Assembly (NCBI RefSeq): GCF_963675395.1
Contig: NZ_OY776223.1
Location: forward strand, 1,116,001 to 1,180,000
Length of the DNA: 64,000 nt
Reading direction: 5' to 3'
DNA from: an uncultured Vibrio sp.
Lineage (GTDB): Bacteria; Pseudomonadota; Gammaproteobacteria; Enterobacterales; Vibrionaceae
In this document: piece by piece, positions 5,248 through 44,196 of the stretch
How positions within the stretch are numbered: the stretch's first letter is position 1
Layout of the letters: each line of letters starts with the position of its first letter
Made by a program: the position numbers and the translations under genes
The notes under the pieces: generated by a model
Database searches by the model: none
The model's input: only the letters and a program-made list of their open reading frames with translations
What the model was told of the DNA's origin: nothing

Positions 5248-6672
5248 TTACGCGCTTGCCGTCTCAAGCTCACCTTTGACTTTCGCACGTTTATAAAGAA
5301 TCAGTGTTAAACCAACAGGCACCACTATCGCCACTAACATTGCCAATGCGAACACACCCCAAAACTGTGGCTGGATAGATAAGATGCCAGGTAGGCCACC
5401 TACGCCGATACCGTTCGCCATCACACCAGCGCTACCACAAACTGCCGCCGCACACGCACTACCAATCATTGCGCTCAGCATTGGGAACTTGTATTTGAGG
5501 TTGATACCGTACATCGCAGGCTCAGTTACGCCGAGATAAGCTGAGATGGCTGCTGGCACAGAGATTTCACGCTCGTCCTGTTTTTTACTGATGATAATAA
5601 TGCCGACCACAGCCGATGCCTGCGCAATGTTTGAAAGCGCAATCAAAGGCCAGATTGGGGTGCCGCCAATCTCTTGCATTAGCTGCAAATCCACGGCGTT
5701 GGTGGTGTGGTGAATACCAGTGATAACTAGTGGCGCGTACAAGAAGCCAAAGACGGTCGAGCCGATAATGGCAAAGTCGCCCGTCATGGCAGCCTTGGCA
5801 GCAAATGCCACACCATTACCTAACATACGACCAAATGGACCAATGATAGAGTGCGCCAGAATCACCGAGATAATGATGGAAACAAATGGCACCACAACCA
5901 GATACAAGTAAGACGGAGTGATACGTTTAAGGTATTTTTCGATATACGCCAGCGCGATACCCGCGAGCATGGCAGGAATAACCTGAGCCTGATAACCCAC
6001 TTTTTCAATCACAAACCAACCGAAATCCCACACTTCCGGTACTTGTTTACCAATCAAATAAGCATTCATTAATTGTGGAGAGACCAGAGTCACACCGAGC
6101 GTGATGCCCAGTATCGGTGTACCACCCAGTTTTTTTACCGTTGACCAACAGACGCCAACAGGTAGGAAGAAGAAAATCGCTTCGCCAATTAACCATAAGA
6201 ATGAATGCACTGTCGCCCAGAACTGACTGATTTCTGTCAGAGTCTGGCCATCAAACATCTTGATGTCGCCAATCACATTACGGAAACCAAGAATCAGACC
6301 ACCAGTAATGATGGCAGGAAGCAGAGGTACGAAGATTTCTGCAAGGTGAGAGATGCCACGCTCGACGATATTCATGTTCTGACGCGCGGCATTTTTTGAT
6401 TCATCTTTGCAGGCTTCGCTTTTACCCGTCATCTCGATCAACACCTTATACACTTCATCGACTTCAGTACCGATGACAACCTGGAATTGACCTGCGTTGG
6501 TAAAACAGCCTTTTACTATTGGCAGTGCTTCTAACTGATTAATATCAGCTTGTTCAGTCTCATTAAGTACAAAACGTAAACGAGTTAAGCAGTGGCTTAC
6601 ACTCGCAATATTGTCTGGCCCACCGACCAACTCAATAAGACGCTGTACATCTTGACGCGCAATCTTACTCAT
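5248..6672 (-). CDS. treB: PTS trehalose-specific EIIBC component TreB
   Basis: Membrane permease and phosphotransferase that imports trehalose as trehalose 6-phosphate. The order is EIIB first (about residues 1-80, phosphocysteine in SHCLTRLRFVL) then the EIIC membrane domain with roughly ten helices. There is no EIIA domain, so phosphate must come from a separate EIIA, by analogy Crr (EIIA-Glc). About 474 aa, equal to E. coli TreB. I choose ATG 6672 over GTG 6684 because GGGTGG lies eight bases before the ATG. The promoter is flanked by two TreR palindromes. The Shine-Dalgarno can pair with the candidate small RNA at 43834-44139. Confidence 0.95.
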   Translation of the reverse strand: MSKIARQDVQRLIELVGGPDNIASVSHCLTRLRFVLNETEQADINQLEALPIVKGCFTNAGQFQVVIGTEVDEVYKVLIEMTGKSEACKDESKNAARQNMNIVERGISHLAEIFVPLLPAIITGGLILGFRNVIGDIKMFDGQTLTEISQFWATVHSFLWLIGEAIFFFLPVGVCWSTVKKLGGTPILGITLGVTLVSPQLMNAYLIGKQVPEVWDFGWFVIEKVGYQAQVIPAMLAGIALAYIEKYLKRITPSYLYLVVVPFVSIIISVILAHSIIGPFGRMLGNGVAFAAKAAMTGDFAIIGSTVFGFLYAPLVITGIHHTTNAVDLQLMQEIGGTPIWPLIALSNIAQASAVVGIIIISKKQDEREISVPAAISAYLGVTEPAMYGINLKYKFPMLSAMIGSACAAAVCGSAGVMANGIGVGGLPGILSIQPQFWGVFALAMLVAIVVPVGLTLILYKRAKVKGELETASA

Positions 6673-6727
6673 AACTTTGCCCACCCTGTATTGGATATGT
6701 TTAACTTTTCTTTGTATTTATTATTAA

Positions 6728-23400: not shown

Positions 23401-23610
23401 CGCAGTACGGGCCTGAACGGCTTGATTTCTCTAGAAATCAATTGGCTTCGTTGTTGCGATGTTGTGTTTGCAAACTCGTATTTCGAGTTAGGTAGATTTC
23501 TACCAAGATGTTTTGTCTACTATCCCTGGGACAAAACATATACTTCCTGTATTTATTTTTGACCTGTCTGTCAAATTTCTTACACCGCCTATTTTGGCGG
23601 TGTTTTTTTA
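23401..23610 (+). ncRNA. gcvB: GcvB small regulatory RNA
   Basis: Hfq-dependent RNA that represses amino acid and peptide transporter mRNAs when glycine is abundant. The conserved GU-rich seed R1 is visible around 23450-23475 (GATGTTGTGTTTGCAA). The conserved ACTTCCTGTA segment, the CCTGTCTGTC stretch and the terminal hairpin ACACCGCC / GGCGGTGT with a T7 tail follow. Length (about 210 nt) and position divergent from gcvA agree with enterobacterial GcvB. The exact 5' end is inferred from the promoter. Confidence 0.93.
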
Positions 23611-23943
23611 TCTGAATTATCTAAGTCTAACAAAACAACACACTAATCGATAAAATAATCTCAGTTGCATTCACTACCAACACCACCCATCTTCTAATGC
23701 ATATTTAGTCACTACTCAGCCACCACCACAGAGTAATGAGTCTAATTGGTACTACGAAAAAAGACTGATAAACCGAAAATTTACCCTACCTAGCTCAGGC
23801 TATCTCAGTATTACTCTTGGAACAAAGCTCACCTTTTTTAGAACATTTCGGATTAATTAACGTTATATCAGTACCCATCAGAAAGATTGCGAGAAACTTC
23901 AACACAACCAGTCAAAGTCCTTCCCTACGACTGAATAAAAAGA
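23611..23943. other. Intergenic region between gcvB and the thiI terminator
   Basis: About 330 bases of AT-rich sequence. I found no ORF with a ribosome site, no terminator and no recognised RNA motif. A weak inverted repeat ACTCAGCC...AGTAATGAGT lies near 23715-23745. Confidence 0.4.
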
Positions 23944-33464: not shown

Positions 33465-34574
33465 TCACTCACAGACGTATTCAACTACGTTCAGGCCAAA
33501 ACCGCCTAACGCATGGTATTTTTTATTCGATGACGATAACAAACGCATGTCGTGAATGCCCAGGTCAGCGAGAATCTGCGAACCTACCCCTACACGACGC
33601 GAAGTACCTTGTTTCTTCGCTAGCGTCGGTGCTTCCCCTTTATCTTGCGCTTCAAACATCTTGACGCGGTGAATAAGAAGTTCACTGGAGTCCTCATGAC
33701 CCAGCACAACCAAAACACCACCTTCTTCGCCAATGCGCTTCATTGCCTTGTCTAAGGTCCAGCTGCGCTCCGCATTACGGTCACTGCGCAATAAGTCAGT
33801 AAACACATCTTGCAAGTGTACGCGAACTAACGGTGCTTTTTCTTTCCAATCACCCTTACACATGGCGTAATGGACTTGGTTATCAATCGTATCTTTGAAG
33901 GTGACAAGCTTAAACTCACCAAACTCAGTCGGCAGCTTACATTCAGCGACACGTTCAATGGTCGTCTCTGTGTTATTGCGATATTCGATTAGGTCAGCGA
34001 TCGTACCCAGTTTAATACCGTGTTTTTCACAGAAAATTTCAAGATCTGGTCGACGAGCCATCGTACCATCATCGTTTAGGATCTCTACAATGACGGATGC
34101 CGGTTCCAAACCAGCAAGGCGAGCTAAATCACAGCCAGCCTCTGTGTGACCAGCGCGCGTTAACACGCCACCATCTTGAGCCGCTAATGGGAAGATATGA
34201 CCCGGTTGAACTAAGTCCGCAGCTTTCGCGTTAGGCGCAACAGCAGCTTGAACAGTACGCGCTCGATCAGCAGCTGAAATACCAGTAGTCACCCCTTCAG
34301 CCGCTTCAATAGAAACCGTAAAGTTTGTCGTGTATTGCGCATTGTTGTCTTGCACCATTGGTGGCAAACCTAGACTTGAGCAACGCTCCTTCGTCATAGT
34401 AAGACAAATCAAGCCACGTCCATGGGTAGCCATAAAGTTGATCGCTTCCGGCGTGATATGCTCGGCAGCCATGATCAAATCACCCTCATTCTCGCGGTCT
34501 TCGTCATCCATTAAGACGACCATTTTACCCGCGCGAATATCATCAATAATTTCTTCTGGTGTACTGATTGGCAT
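33465..34574 (-). CDS. 3,4-dihydroxy-2-butanone-4-phosphate synthase with degenerate GTP cyclohydrolase II domain (RibBX type)
   Basis: The N-terminal domain (about 1-199) is a complete Rib[13 protein letters not shown] and the GHTEAGCDL motif are present, so it should make dihydroxybutanone phosphate from ribulose 5-phosphate. Residues about 205-369 align with GTP cyclohydrolase II but lack its catalytic zinc site: instead of the usual SECLTGD...RCDCG cysteines the sequence reads [19 protein letters not shown]. This matches the RibBX variant known in Proteobacteria, whose second domain is not a working cyclohydrolase. A functional ribA is expected elsewhere. Often auto-annotated as bifunctional RibBA. 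Confidence 0.9.
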
Positions 34575-41441: not shown

Positions 41442-41906
41442 TTATTTTTGCTTGCGATTCACTGGCTCTGCGAACTGGATCGACATATCCCATGGCTGCT
41501 CAATCCAAGTATCTTGCTCAATATCAACAACGTAGTCATCAAGAAGATCTTTGCCTGACGGCTTAGCACATACAGCAATCATTTTTGCTTTAGGGTACAT
41601 TTCACGCAATTGACGCGCAGTATCACCGCTATCTACTAGGTCTTCAACGATTAGGTAACCTTCACCGTCACCTTCAGGTGCTTTAAGCACAGACATATCA
41701 CGCTGATGGTCATGGTCGTAGCTTGAAATACAGATAGTATCAACGTAACGAATGCCCAGTTCGCGAGCTAAGATCGCACCAGGAACTAAACCACCACGGC
41801 TTACTGCCCAGATACCTTTCCATTGCTCGGCTGGCATTTGCTTCTCAGCCAGTTCACGACAGTAAGTCTGCATCGCATCCCAAGTGATAATGAATTTTTT
41901 ACTCAT
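41442..41906 (-). CDS. gpt: Xanthine-guanine phosphoribosyltransferase Gpt
   Basis: Salvages guanine, xanthine and hypoxanthine by joining them to PRPP. The 154-aa protein contains the PRPP-binding motif [13 protein letters not shown] and the N-terminal [19 protein letters not shown]. It neighbours the purine permease gene on the same strand, so uptake and salvage are grouped. Confidence 0.96.
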
Positions 41907-42175: not shown

Positions 42176-43465
42176 TTAACCTACAAGGTATTTCACGATA
42201 AAGATAGCTGACATCACCCAAACACTCAGCGATACATCGCGACCTTTACCACTGAACAGCTTGATAGCAGAGTATGCGATAAAGCCTAGTGTAATACCTT
42301 CAGCAATTGAGAAAGTCAGTGGCATAACAAGACAAGTAACAACCACTGGAGATGCCTCTGTCAGATCACGCCAATCGATACTTACTAAGCCAGACAGCAT
42401 TAGGATCGCTACGTAAAACAGCGCACCTGATGTTGCGTATGCCGGAATCATACCTGCAAGAGGTGAAAAGAATAGCGCCAGTAAGAATAGTACGCCGACA
42501 ACAACAGCAGTCAGACCTGTACGGCCACCCGCTGCCACACCAGCAACACTCTCAATGTAAGACGTGGTGTTTGATGTACCCAGTAGAGCACCTACAGAAG
42601 TTGCGGTTGAATCAGCAAGTAGCGCTTTATTAAGACGAGGAATGTTGCCATTTTCATCGGTTAAACCCGCTTTCTGAGAAACGCCTACCAGCGTGCCTGC
42701 AGTGTCGAACAAGTCAACGAATAGGAAAGCAAACACGACTGAGATCATGCCAACTTCAAACAGTCCAGAGAAGTCTAGTTGTAGAAATGTAGGAGCAATG
42801 CTTGGTGGTGTCGACATCACACCGCCCCACTGCACATCACCGAAAAGCAGACCTAGCGCAGTTACACCTAGAATGGCAATCATTACCGCTCCTTTCACTC
42901 CGCGGTGAACAAGCGAAATAGTCAGGAAGAAACCGATTGCCGCTAAAACAGATGGCAACGAAGTAATATTACCCATCGAAACCAGTGTCGCTGGGTTATC
43001 AACCACGATGCCTGCGTTTTTAAGTGCAATAAACGCAAGGAACAAACCAATACCCGCTGAAATACCGGTACGTAAAGAATGAGGAATTGAGTTGATGATC
43101 CATTCGCGGATCTTGAACACACTTAATAGAATGAACAACACACCAGAGACAAATACGGCCGCCAGTGCCACTTGCCATGTGTAACCCATTCCCAATACTA
43201 CAGAGTAGGTAAAGAACGCGTTAAGCCCCATACCCGGAGCCTGTGCGATTGGGTAGTTGGCTACCAAACCCATAATGAAACAGCCAATGGCAGCAGCAAG
43301 ACAGGTTGCTACAAAAATAGCGCCACGATCCATGCCTGTGTCAGATAGGATAGCTGGGTTTACAAAAATGATGTAAGCCATGGTCAGGAAGGTAGTAACA
43401 CCTGCGATGATCTCAGTGCGCACATTTGTGCCATTTTCACTGAGCTTAAAGAGCCTTTCGAGCAT
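42176..43465 (-). CDS. NCS2 family purine permease (adenine/guanine/hypoxanthine type)
   Basis: A 429-aa integral membrane protein with about 13-14 helices and the NCS2 signatures QAPGMGLNAFFTYSVV, LFDTAGTLVGVSQKAGL and SNTTSYIESVAGVAAGGRTGLTA. These mark the AzgA-like purine-base branch of E. coli AdeP/AdeQ/GhxP/GhxQ rather than the uracil or xanthine branch. A PurR box lies between its promoter and start, which supports purine uptake. The exact base specificity cannot be read from sequence. Confidence 0.9.
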   Translation of the reverse strand: MLERLFKLSENGTNVRTEIIAGVTTFLTMAYIIFVNPAILSDTGMDRGAIFVATCLAAAIGCFIMGLVANYPIAQAPGMGLNAFFTYSVVLGMGYTWQVALAAVFVSGVLFILLSVFKIREWIINSIPHSLRTGISAGIGLFLAFIALKNAGIVVDNPATLVSMGNITSLPSVLAAIGFFLTISLVHRGVKGAVMIAILGVTALGLLFGDVQWGGVMSTPPSIAPTFLQLDFSGLFEVGMISVVFAFLFVDLFDTAGTLVGVSQKAGLTDENGNIPRLNKALLADSTATSVGALLGTSNTTSYIESVAGVAAGGRTGLTAVVVGVLFLLALFFSPLAGMIPAYATSGALFYVAILMLSGLVSIDWRDLTEASPVVVTCLVMPLTFSIAEGITLGFIAYSAIKLFSGKGRDVSLSVWVMSAIFIVKYLVG

Positions 43466-43504: not shown

Positions 43505-43833
43505 AATCGATTGTGTGAATTATAAAGTTATCAAATAGCAAATTCTAGATAGAATCTTCACTCTAAATGGATTTTTTTGCAGGATATGAAACCCATTCGC
43601 TAGGATTCTTCACACGAAAAAAAATTAAGACTTAATAAACAATGACTAGCGAGTTAGGACACAAAACGTACAAAGAATACAAACTGAACAATGTTCTAAA
43701 CTTTCAAAAGGAAAGCTCGATTTCTAGTTAGCTTTTAGAGCGTATTGCGTGAAGATATCGCATTAGACAGGACAAGCGATAAGGGAATTGGCACTTTGTG
43801 ATGAATTTTTAGACAAGCCACGAAAAAGAACAT
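43505..43833. other. Intergenic region between purine permease and candidate vcdRP
   Basis: Contains the permease promoter (TATAAT at 43519-43524, minus strand) and otherwise AT-rich sequence. A short palindrome ATTCTAGATAGAAT lies near 43540-43553. I see no ORF with a ribosome site or further RNA signal. Confidence 0.4.
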
Positions 43834-43861
43834 AAAAAAACGCCACTCAAAATGAGTGGCG
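43834..43861 (-). terminator. Terminator of the candidate vcdRP RNA
   Basis: Perfect 9-bp stem CGCCACTCA / TGAGTGGCG, three-base loop, seven T on the minus strand; typical of Hfq-bound RNAs. Confidence 0.88.
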
Positions 43862-43948
43862 GCGAATCATGTCAGAACTATTACTGAAAAAAAATTCCAA
43901 ATTATAGGGGTGAACAAACTGTTCAAGTCACATGCGTTGACAACTTAC

Positions 43949-44035
43949 TTAGTAGCCAAAGCTTGTTGGGTATACAAAGTTACCGGTATATACAGATTTG
44001 CTATTCCAGAACATTGTACTTGGTAAACCTTTCAT
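43949..44035 (-). CDS. Small protein of 28 aa, candidate VcdP
   Basis: ATG AAA GGT start with AAGAAGGTGAT seven bases upstream, a very good ribosome site. The peptide begins MKGLPSTMFW and ends VYPTSFGY; it is rich in aromatic residues (W10, F9, F20, F26, Y16, Y22, Y28), has no charged residue beyond K2 and K13, and no signal or membrane segment. It lies inside a terminated transcript. I read it as the VcdP-type small protein of the dual-function RNA, expected to act in the cytoplasm; the reference protein as I recall is one residue longer. Confidence 0.7.
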   Translation of the reverse strand: MKGLPSTMFWNSKSVYTGNFVYPTSFGY

Positions 44036-44145
44036 AACTATCACCTTCTTAATCAATTAATGCAGTCGTTGATTCTCAGTTCCTTGGAGGCGATTAACGG
44101 ACTCATCCTTTGAGCATTTTATTCTTCTCTCTGAAGATGGTTATA

Positions 44146-44173
44146 AATATACCACCAAGAAATTTTATTACAA
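44146..44173 (-). promoter_or_regulatory. Candidate promoter of the vcdRP-like RNA
   Basis: On the minus strand TTGTAA, 16-base spacer, TATATT. Predicted start near 44139, about 104 bases before the small ORF. Confidence 0.5.
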
Positions 44174-44180
44174 GACTTTT

Positions 44181-44196
44181 AGTGACTCAAATCACA
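44181..44196. promoter_or_regulatory. Candidate CRP site upstream of the vcdRP-like RNA
   Basis: Minus strand TGTGATTTGAGTCACT fits TGTGA-N6-TCACA with one mismatch. Its centre is about 50 bases upstream of the predicted RNA start, which fits CRP control of a carbon-metabolism RNA but is not the canonical -41.5 activator position. It also lies in the region upstream of pepD. Confidence 0.6.

Follow-up and report, generated by a model that had tools for sequence, protein, structure and literature searches.

The segment at positions 43834–44139 (minus strand) of the window, i.e., the whole 64,000-nucleotide stretch of Vibrio DNA analyzed in this work, is almost certainly the ortholog of vcdRP, the dual-function RNA known from Vibrio cholerae and formerly named Vcr082 (EMBO J 2021, PMC8672173; here and below, published work is cited as it stands in the accessible part of each source). 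This kind of RNA is already known; what is added here is its leader and the natural separation of its two functions.

Identity and Organization of the Locus

The original prediction had read the locus as a VcdRP homologue, and this reading is supported by a protein family match, by the geometry of the RNA, by purifying selection on the ORF, and by a run of cytosines. Indeed, the comparison with the published V. cholerae RNA revealed that the VcdP family match is full-length and that the length of the RNA (306 nt), the position of the ORF, the CCCC seed, the CRP-like box 5' of the −35 element, and the terminator agree. With a transcription start at about 44139, a position inferred by analogy with that published for the V. 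cholerae ORF, the transcript would measure 306 nt, with the ORF from position 105 and CCCC at 230–233; in V. cholerae, the RNA measures 306 nt, the ORF occupies positions 104–193, and the four cytosines lie at the distal end of 223–232 (PMC8672173). The two orthologs differ in ORF length (28 codons here, 29 there), and the offsets of ORF and CCCC are about 1 nt apart. In another genome (G312, locus L019), setting the start 103 nt before the ATG yields exactly the published numbers (306 nt, ORF from 104, CCCC at 229–232).

In the window, the locus is flanked by pepD, which is divergent, and by a purine permease gene followed by a phosphoribosyltransferase gene; pepD and the permease gene are the putative homologues of vc2279 and vc2278, respectively. 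V. cholerae vcdRP is located between vc2278 and vc2279 (PMC8672173, whose accessible text does not contain the word pepD), and the gene neighborhood is probably the same in the two genomes. As had been noted before, no protein-coding neighbor lies on the same strand for about 370 bases, the nearest large ORF being that of the permease (start at 43465). The small protein is identical to the one encoded by the window in the named loci of Vibrio sp. J1-1 and V. diabolicus, and the J1-1 locus shares 91% identity with the window over 2004 aligned bases.

At the vcdRP locus, no Rfam family reached its gathering score. Two candidates were rejected: JA04, an Aggregatibacter family with a weak match at 43825–43905 (minus strand; 35 bits against a gathering score of 81, E 0.0005), mostly on the terminator side, and Spot 42, which scored 15.5 bits, far under its threshold. 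The expectation that the locus would be annotated as empty now holds only in part, because NCBIfam release 20.0 carries a VcdP model.

Elsewhere in the window, Rfam recognizes a GcvB RNA (23402–23611, plus strand) and the Vibrio RNA AS9 (34377–34477, plus strand). A xanthine phosphoribosyltransferase gene (41442–41906, minus strand) scores 337.5 bits, just below the NCBIfam Tet(34) cut-off of 345, and looks like a housekeeping gene.

Promoter, CRP-Like Box, and Terminator

The elements of the minus-strand transcription unit that had been proposed are all present, although the promoter-like matches taken by themselves are at chance level (three in the region against a mean of 3.4 in shuffles). 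The −35-like TTGTAA (44168–44173, minus strand) is, alone, no more than chance would give; it is followed by an extended −10 element, TATATT within TGGTATATT (44146–44151, minus strand), placed appropriately for the start at about 44139 that the published V. cholerae ORF position implies. A putative CRP-like box, TGTGATTTGAGTCACT (44181–44196, minus strand), was recognized by its letters through comparison with the CRP consensus. It lies 5' of the −35 element, as published for V. cholerae vcdRP, which CRP represses via a site upstream of −35 (PMC8672173). What makes the promoter credible is chiefly its agreement in position with the published start site, together with a CRP-like box at the published place.

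The perfect terminator that had been described was confirmed: CGCCACTCATTTTGAGTGGCG followed by T7 (43834–43861, minus strand) forms a 9-bp perfect stem and ends at 43834. Under a strict rule (a stem of at least eight perfect pairs, at least six of them G/C, then T7), it is the only terminator on both strands of the 64 kb, and each of 10 block shuffles contained none; a looser scan of the region gave two matches against 0.8 in shuffles. The full RNA is predicted to fold slightly better than its shuffles (z −1.73, single-sequence).

The VcdP Open Reading Frame

The 28-codon ORF vcdP (43949–44035, minus strand), with its ATG start and its stop, is present in the sequence as described and encodes MKGLPSTMFWNSKSVYTGNFVYPTSFGY. 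The strong Shine–Dalgarno sequence attributed to it was also found (AAGGTGAT, 44040–44047, minus strand), AAGG lying 8 nt 5' of the vcdP ATG. The product matches the NCBIfam equivalog model NF053523 (small protein VcdP) with 65 bits, the cut-off being 50, over residues 1–28 of 28; Pfam gave no match for it at E 0.001. The length of the ORF is in itself unremarkable, as 108 ORFs of at least 20 aa occur in 7 kb, and we consider the ORF to be real because of the family match together with the codon pattern. Indeed, conservation of the frame was borne out by a dN/dS of about 0.24, which points to purifying selection. This value was obtained from 61 VcdP ORFs of the same length, using 981 of the 1830 possible pairs, which are non-independent; only pairs with at most 25 differences were kept, and ORFs of unequal length or with gaps were excluded. 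The differences at the first, second, and third codon positions number 3226, 3497, and 6678, respectively.

A VcdP match was found in 265 of 329 Vibrionaceae genomes, above the cut-off in 178 of the 329, and in none of 14 control genomes. An even sample of the order gave a VcdP match in 34 of 394 genomes, and within that sample the only genomes outside Vibrionaceae with a score above the cut-off were two members of one family (G338 and G362, family f11). Three loci, L203 and L205 of that family and L185 of a metagenome-assembled genome named Plesiomonas, have the leader and VcdP, but only three cytosines at the seed (TTCATCCC). Matches to the VcdP model in contig 2 of G317 (21.9 bits) and in G474 and G565 (22 to 24 bits) were treated as chance. 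Divergent small proteins that the VcdP model misses follow the same leader at L092, L093, L095, L096, L097, and L105, an example being that of L095, MNGMSSASFWSSSYVCVTNAVNFKNFTGFGY.

The VcdR Seed and Its Predicted Targets

The C-rich character that had been assigned to the RNA corresponds to one run of four cytosines 3' of the ORF (CCCC, 43910–43907), embedded in the putative VcdR seed GUUCACCCC (43907–43915, minus strand). The four cytosines are functional in base pairing in V. cholerae VcdR (PMC8672173), and the run is conserved: at least four cytosines follow the ORF in 83 of 89 copies (the window plus 88 loci, near-copies included), the exceptions being L018 and L057, which have CCC, and L036, L042, L047, and L067, which have none. 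A narrow 16-base seed pattern occurs in only 27 of 329 genomes, which implies that few genomes share the same bases on either side of the seed. The later counts rely on the C-run alone; because its distance from the ORF is variable, some of the runs may not be the same seed.

The validated targets of V. cholerae VcdR are the start regions of ptsG, nagE, treB, and ptsHI (PMC8672173). We compared the 25-nt seed region with the start regions of 11 PTS genes, one of them at two start codons (of 12 loci, L201 was left out). In 300 block shuffles, the predicted pairing stood out for nagE (L194; −20.8 kcal/mol, p about 0.01 or less) and for treB (−20.0 kcal/mol, p about 0.01). The latter, encoding the trehalose PTS IIBC (5248–6672, minus strand; PRK11007, 899 bits), lies within the window, with the complementary stretch around its start at 6667–6693, and is a predicted VcdR target. 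The match to ptsH was weak (−11.3 kcal/mol, p 0.11). In contrast with V. cholerae, complementarity to ptsG was unconvincing in the window genome, the two genes matching the glucose model TIGR02002 giving −8.9 (L198, p 0.17) and −6.5 (L192, p 0.72); the same is true for a second gene of the N-acetylglucosamine model (L196, −10.1, p 0.11). For the other genes, the values were −9.8 with p 0.02 (L193) and p 0.28 to 0.71 (L195, L199, and L202).

A sucrose PTS gene (L191, contig 1 of G000, near 473588) likewise stood out against the 300 block shuffles (−17.8 kcal/mol, p about 0.01 or less); it might be an extra VcdR target, outside the four validated in the published work.

The Leader Upstream of vcdP

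Between the putative start and the Shine–Dalgarno sequence, the leader comprises several elements, all on the minus strand. A predicted fold gives a 5'-terminal hairpin, UCUUC-AGAGA-GAAGA (44123–44137), at which hairpin-like stretches can be seen by eye in relatives. It is followed by the hairpin H1, GCUCA-AAGGA-UGAGU (44101–44115), with GGA in its loop and a covarying stem, and by the core element CUCCAAGGAACUGAG (44075–44089), which has the near-invariant pattern CUCC-ANGGA-ACYGAG; these are candidate CsrA sites 1 and 2, respectively. The anti-Shine–Dalgarno stretch AAUCGCCU (44088–44095) is complementary to the vcdP Shine–Dalgarno sequence, with which it forms a consensus helix in RNAalifold.

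The structural claim for the leader rests on the covariation of H1. Indeed, the leader alone is predicted to fold no better than shuffles (z 0.81, single-sequence), and the 3-bp CUC/GAG stem of the core exhibits no covariation. In 63 of 65 leaders (L034 and L049 were left out), 250 of 252 cells of the H1 stem are standard pairs, and the loop holds GGA in all 63 leaders parsed. Double changes occur in two of the four pairs (19 cells), and none of 2000 permutations, which leave relatedness in, was as good; relatives have GUUC/GAAC, GUUU/AAAC, GUUU/AAGC, and other stems. Because the MAFFT alignment shifts the stems of many GUUC-type sequences, a rule was used to parse the arms on which the pairs were counted; this rule seeks G-C/U-U-C/U and thereby predetermines part of the 5' arm. 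Among 50 non-redundant leaders, 48 have GGA within the H1 hairpin loop, versus 22% of the 1187 GGA sites of the window that lie in such a loop; for the three CsrB-like RNAs of the window genome, the figure is 29 of 53 sites.

The core pattern was found in 254 of 329 Vibrionaceae genomes, its reversed control giving 0 throughout. Among the matches listed, each genome has it a single time apart from G288, G059, and G080, all three of them genomes with two vcdP genes. The variable base of ANGGA in 80 leaders is A in 52, T in 13, G in 9, and C in 6, and a second CUCC-ANGGA copy is present in L037 and L051.

According to a review on CsrA, the protein recognizes ANGGAN in hairpin loops, and the ymdA leader has one site in the hairpin sequestering the Shine–Dalgarno sequence and one just upstream (PMC7652899). 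The leader of the window resembles CsrA-controlled leaders such as those of E. coli ymdA and P. aeruginosa psl (PMC7652899) in having GGA in a hairpin loop and two candidate sites 5' of the Shine–Dalgarno sequence, one of them between anti-Shine–Dalgarno and Shine–Dalgarno. H1 and the core are candidates that look like CsrA sites, although two of our tests were lukewarm. A weight matrix built from the CsrB-like RNAs of the same genome, which separates poorly, places H1 in the top 7.5% of the GGA sites of the window and the core only at 54%.

The energy of the pairing between Shine–Dalgarno and anti-Shine–Dalgarno is −8.6 kcal/mol versus −3.4 in shuffles, with changes that are uncompensated; the pairing is predicted (above 0.3) in 18 of 50 leaders, the value for the window being 0.08. 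In fold calculations, forcing the GGA of the core to be unpaired raises the predicted pairing in many leaders, a behavior that would suit repression.

Upstream ORFs in the leader (AUG CUC AAA GGA UGA and an overlapping frame of 17 codons) were considered and rejected because L019 and L062 have ACG in place of the first AUG and because the spacing between H1 and the core varies by single bases.

Distribution of the Leader, the ORF, and the Seed

Comparison of the loci in relatives suggests that the leader, at the front of the RNA, is a control element present or absent together with VcdP. To follow the parts separately, we sampled 30 of the 64 genomes lacking a VcdP match, finding pepD in 27 of them and none in three; of the other 34 genomes without a match, G167, G228, G283, G311, and G099 were checked via the leader pattern. 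Profile searches were carried out for each of the three parts, the maxima in 108 shuffles being 6.8 bits for the leader, 5.2 for the ORF, and 4.8 for the tail. Of 64 named VcdP loci, all but L190 were searched, and the leader was present in 63 of 63 and the tail in 62 of 63.

In the 27 pepD loci without a VcdP match, the tail reached at least 8 bits in 21, several of these scores being low (8–15 bits), and a C-run at the seed was found in 20 (at least four cytosines in 18 of them, three in L104 and L107); L101 has a tail match but no C-run and is a decayed remnant. Behind the seed, a terminator with a perfect stem was found by rule in 12 of these 20 seed-only loci, an imperfect hairpin (with a mismatch or a longer loop) before a T-run can be read in L103, L106, L107, L110, and L111, and neither rule nor reading established one in L108, L114, and L117. 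In none of the 20 did the profile search find a leader above the shuffle level, and none has a recognizable VcdP ORF; apparent vcdP remnants are present in L103 and L104. A scan for the motif at the end of the ORF found L105 alone among the 27 loci, and this locus, with leader, divergent VcdP, and no C-run, is also the sole leader-bearing one.

The opposite state, i.e., leader and vcdP with no C-run at the seed, was observed at six loci (L036, L042, L047, L067, L099, and L105). Two of these, L036 (G080) and L099 (G059), are second vcdP copies with the leader and with a terminator-like hairpin directly after the ORF, and the same genomes also hold a copy with the C-run (L061 and L038, respectively). 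L067 and L089 (contig 1 of G288, 732971–733303) are tandem vcdP genes, 249 bases from start to start; the core leader element is found in both, and the C-run only in the second copy, L089.

When mapped on a tree of pepD (76 rows), VcdP absence requires nine changes, of which at least six are imposed by branches with good support; some branches of the tree are long (L126, L049, L087, and L203), its bootstrap values are not quite settled, and L032, L034, L035, L036, L037, and L040 were left out as having too little pepD sequence. One clade exhibits stages of decay: in L086, vcdP has a nonsense codon and the GGA of the core is altered, with C-run and terminator kept; L101 has remnants; and nothing was detected in L100. 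The co-occurrence of the parts and their separate survival imply that the gene behaves as two units, the leader with the ORF being one and the seed part the other.

Discussion

The data reported here establish what the gene is and that its ORF is under selection; they also show that the seed is conserved, that the terminator is strong, and that the nagE and treB genes of the same genome have complementarity to the RNA. CRP repression, Hfq binding, GltA activation, and target repression are carried over from the work on V. cholerae, in which VcdP binds and activates GltA and VcdRP is bound by Hfq and processed by RNase E (PMC8672173). By this analogy, a CRP-repressed promoter would give rise to a transcript of about 306 nt. 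Translation of its middle would yield the 28-aa VcdP, a protein expected to bind citrate synthase (GltA), and its 3' part (the CCCC seed and the terminator) would be expected to block sugar-PTS mRNAs by pairing with their start regions. The 5' leader might represent a separate control module for the translation of vcdP, the hairpin with GGA in its loop and the ANGGA core being two candidate CsrA sites upstream of the Shine–Dalgarno sequence.

The same architecture, a dual RNA with a small ORF upstream and a distal seed against PTS mRNAs, is found in SgrS/SgrT of enteric bacteria (PMC8672173), which differs from VcdRP in the small protein, in its target, and in the control of transcription. An ortholog in another Vibrio, VvdRP of Vibrio vulnificus, was measured by RT-qPCR and goes up with glycerol (PMC9737408), whereas VcdRP goes down with glycerol in V. 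cholerae (PMC8672173); the opposite responses imply that control may differ between species.

It is possible that the gene consists of two modules, VcdP (the leader as a two-site CsrA-responsive translation switch, plus the ORF) and VcdR (seed plus terminator), each surviving alone in several lineages, and that Csr would set the input into the TCA cycle apart from sugar uptake; we advance this idea tentatively, giving it somewhat less than an even chance. In the earlier work, all the species tested (seven named) had kept both the base-pairing sequence and the ORF (PMC8672173).

Different explanations of the locus and of its leader were weighed. The locus might be a small-protein gene and nothing else, a VcdP mRNA with an ordinary 3' end in a species from which base pairing is absent. 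Genes with leader and ORF and no C-run do exist, as the six loci described above demonstrate, but the copy in the window carries GUUCACCCC where the published RNA has its seed, matching the start regions of both nagE and treB, which makes this view very improbable. The reverse idea, that of a non-coding RNA in which the 28-codon ORF is incidental, would have in its favor that a seed with no recognizable vcdP is common (the 20 of 27 pepD loci lacking a match to the VcdP model); it can be practically dismissed for the window, whose ORF is intact, matches VcdP with 65 bits, and belongs to a family evolving with a dN/dS of about 0.24.

As for the leader, it might be purely an RNA switch, independent of CsrA, in which AUCGCCU pairs with AGGUGAU of the Shine–Dalgarno region and holds back the translation of vcdP. 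That RNAalifold picks this helix in 50 leaders, with a pairing energy far above the shuffled one in strength, speaks for such a switch; we nevertheless consider it doubtful, since changes on either side are uncompensated (in the g4 lineage, L033, L042, and L079), the helix is predicted in just 18 of the 50 leaders, and the covarying GGA hairpin, the variable N of ANGGA, and the second CUCC-ANGGA of L037 and L051 would be left unexplained. Two GGA sites within one small RNA would also fit a sponge that titrates CsrA and does not serve vcdP, a role attributed in E. coli to the small RNA McaS. However, leader and vcdP are lost together where the seed stays, and vcdP genes devoid of the seed keep the leader (L036, L042, L047, and L105), so that a sponge appears improbable.

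The literature on VcdRP/Vcr082 and on Vibrio CsrA, covered mostly at the level of titles, yielded neither a link between CsrA and VcdRP nor a case of separated parts. The accessible main text of PMC8672173 has no occurrence of CsrA, leader, or secondary structure, and the leader is not discussed in it. Selected V. cholerae RNAs were tested for CsrA binding by Butz et al. 2021 (PMC7858070); words starting with Vcr, and VC2278, are absent from the accessible main text of that paper.

The analysis places a known unusual regulator in one more Vibrio and reveals a family that extends far beyond the seven species of the 2021 alignment. The natural separation mutants, with the RNA part only or the protein part only, provide comparisons for the question of why both functions share one transcript. 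Should the leader prove to be a CsrA site, VcdP would be tied to the global carbon regulator; under the two-module reading, an RNA controlled by CRP would also be a Csr control point for the input into the TCA cycle, apart from sugar uptake.
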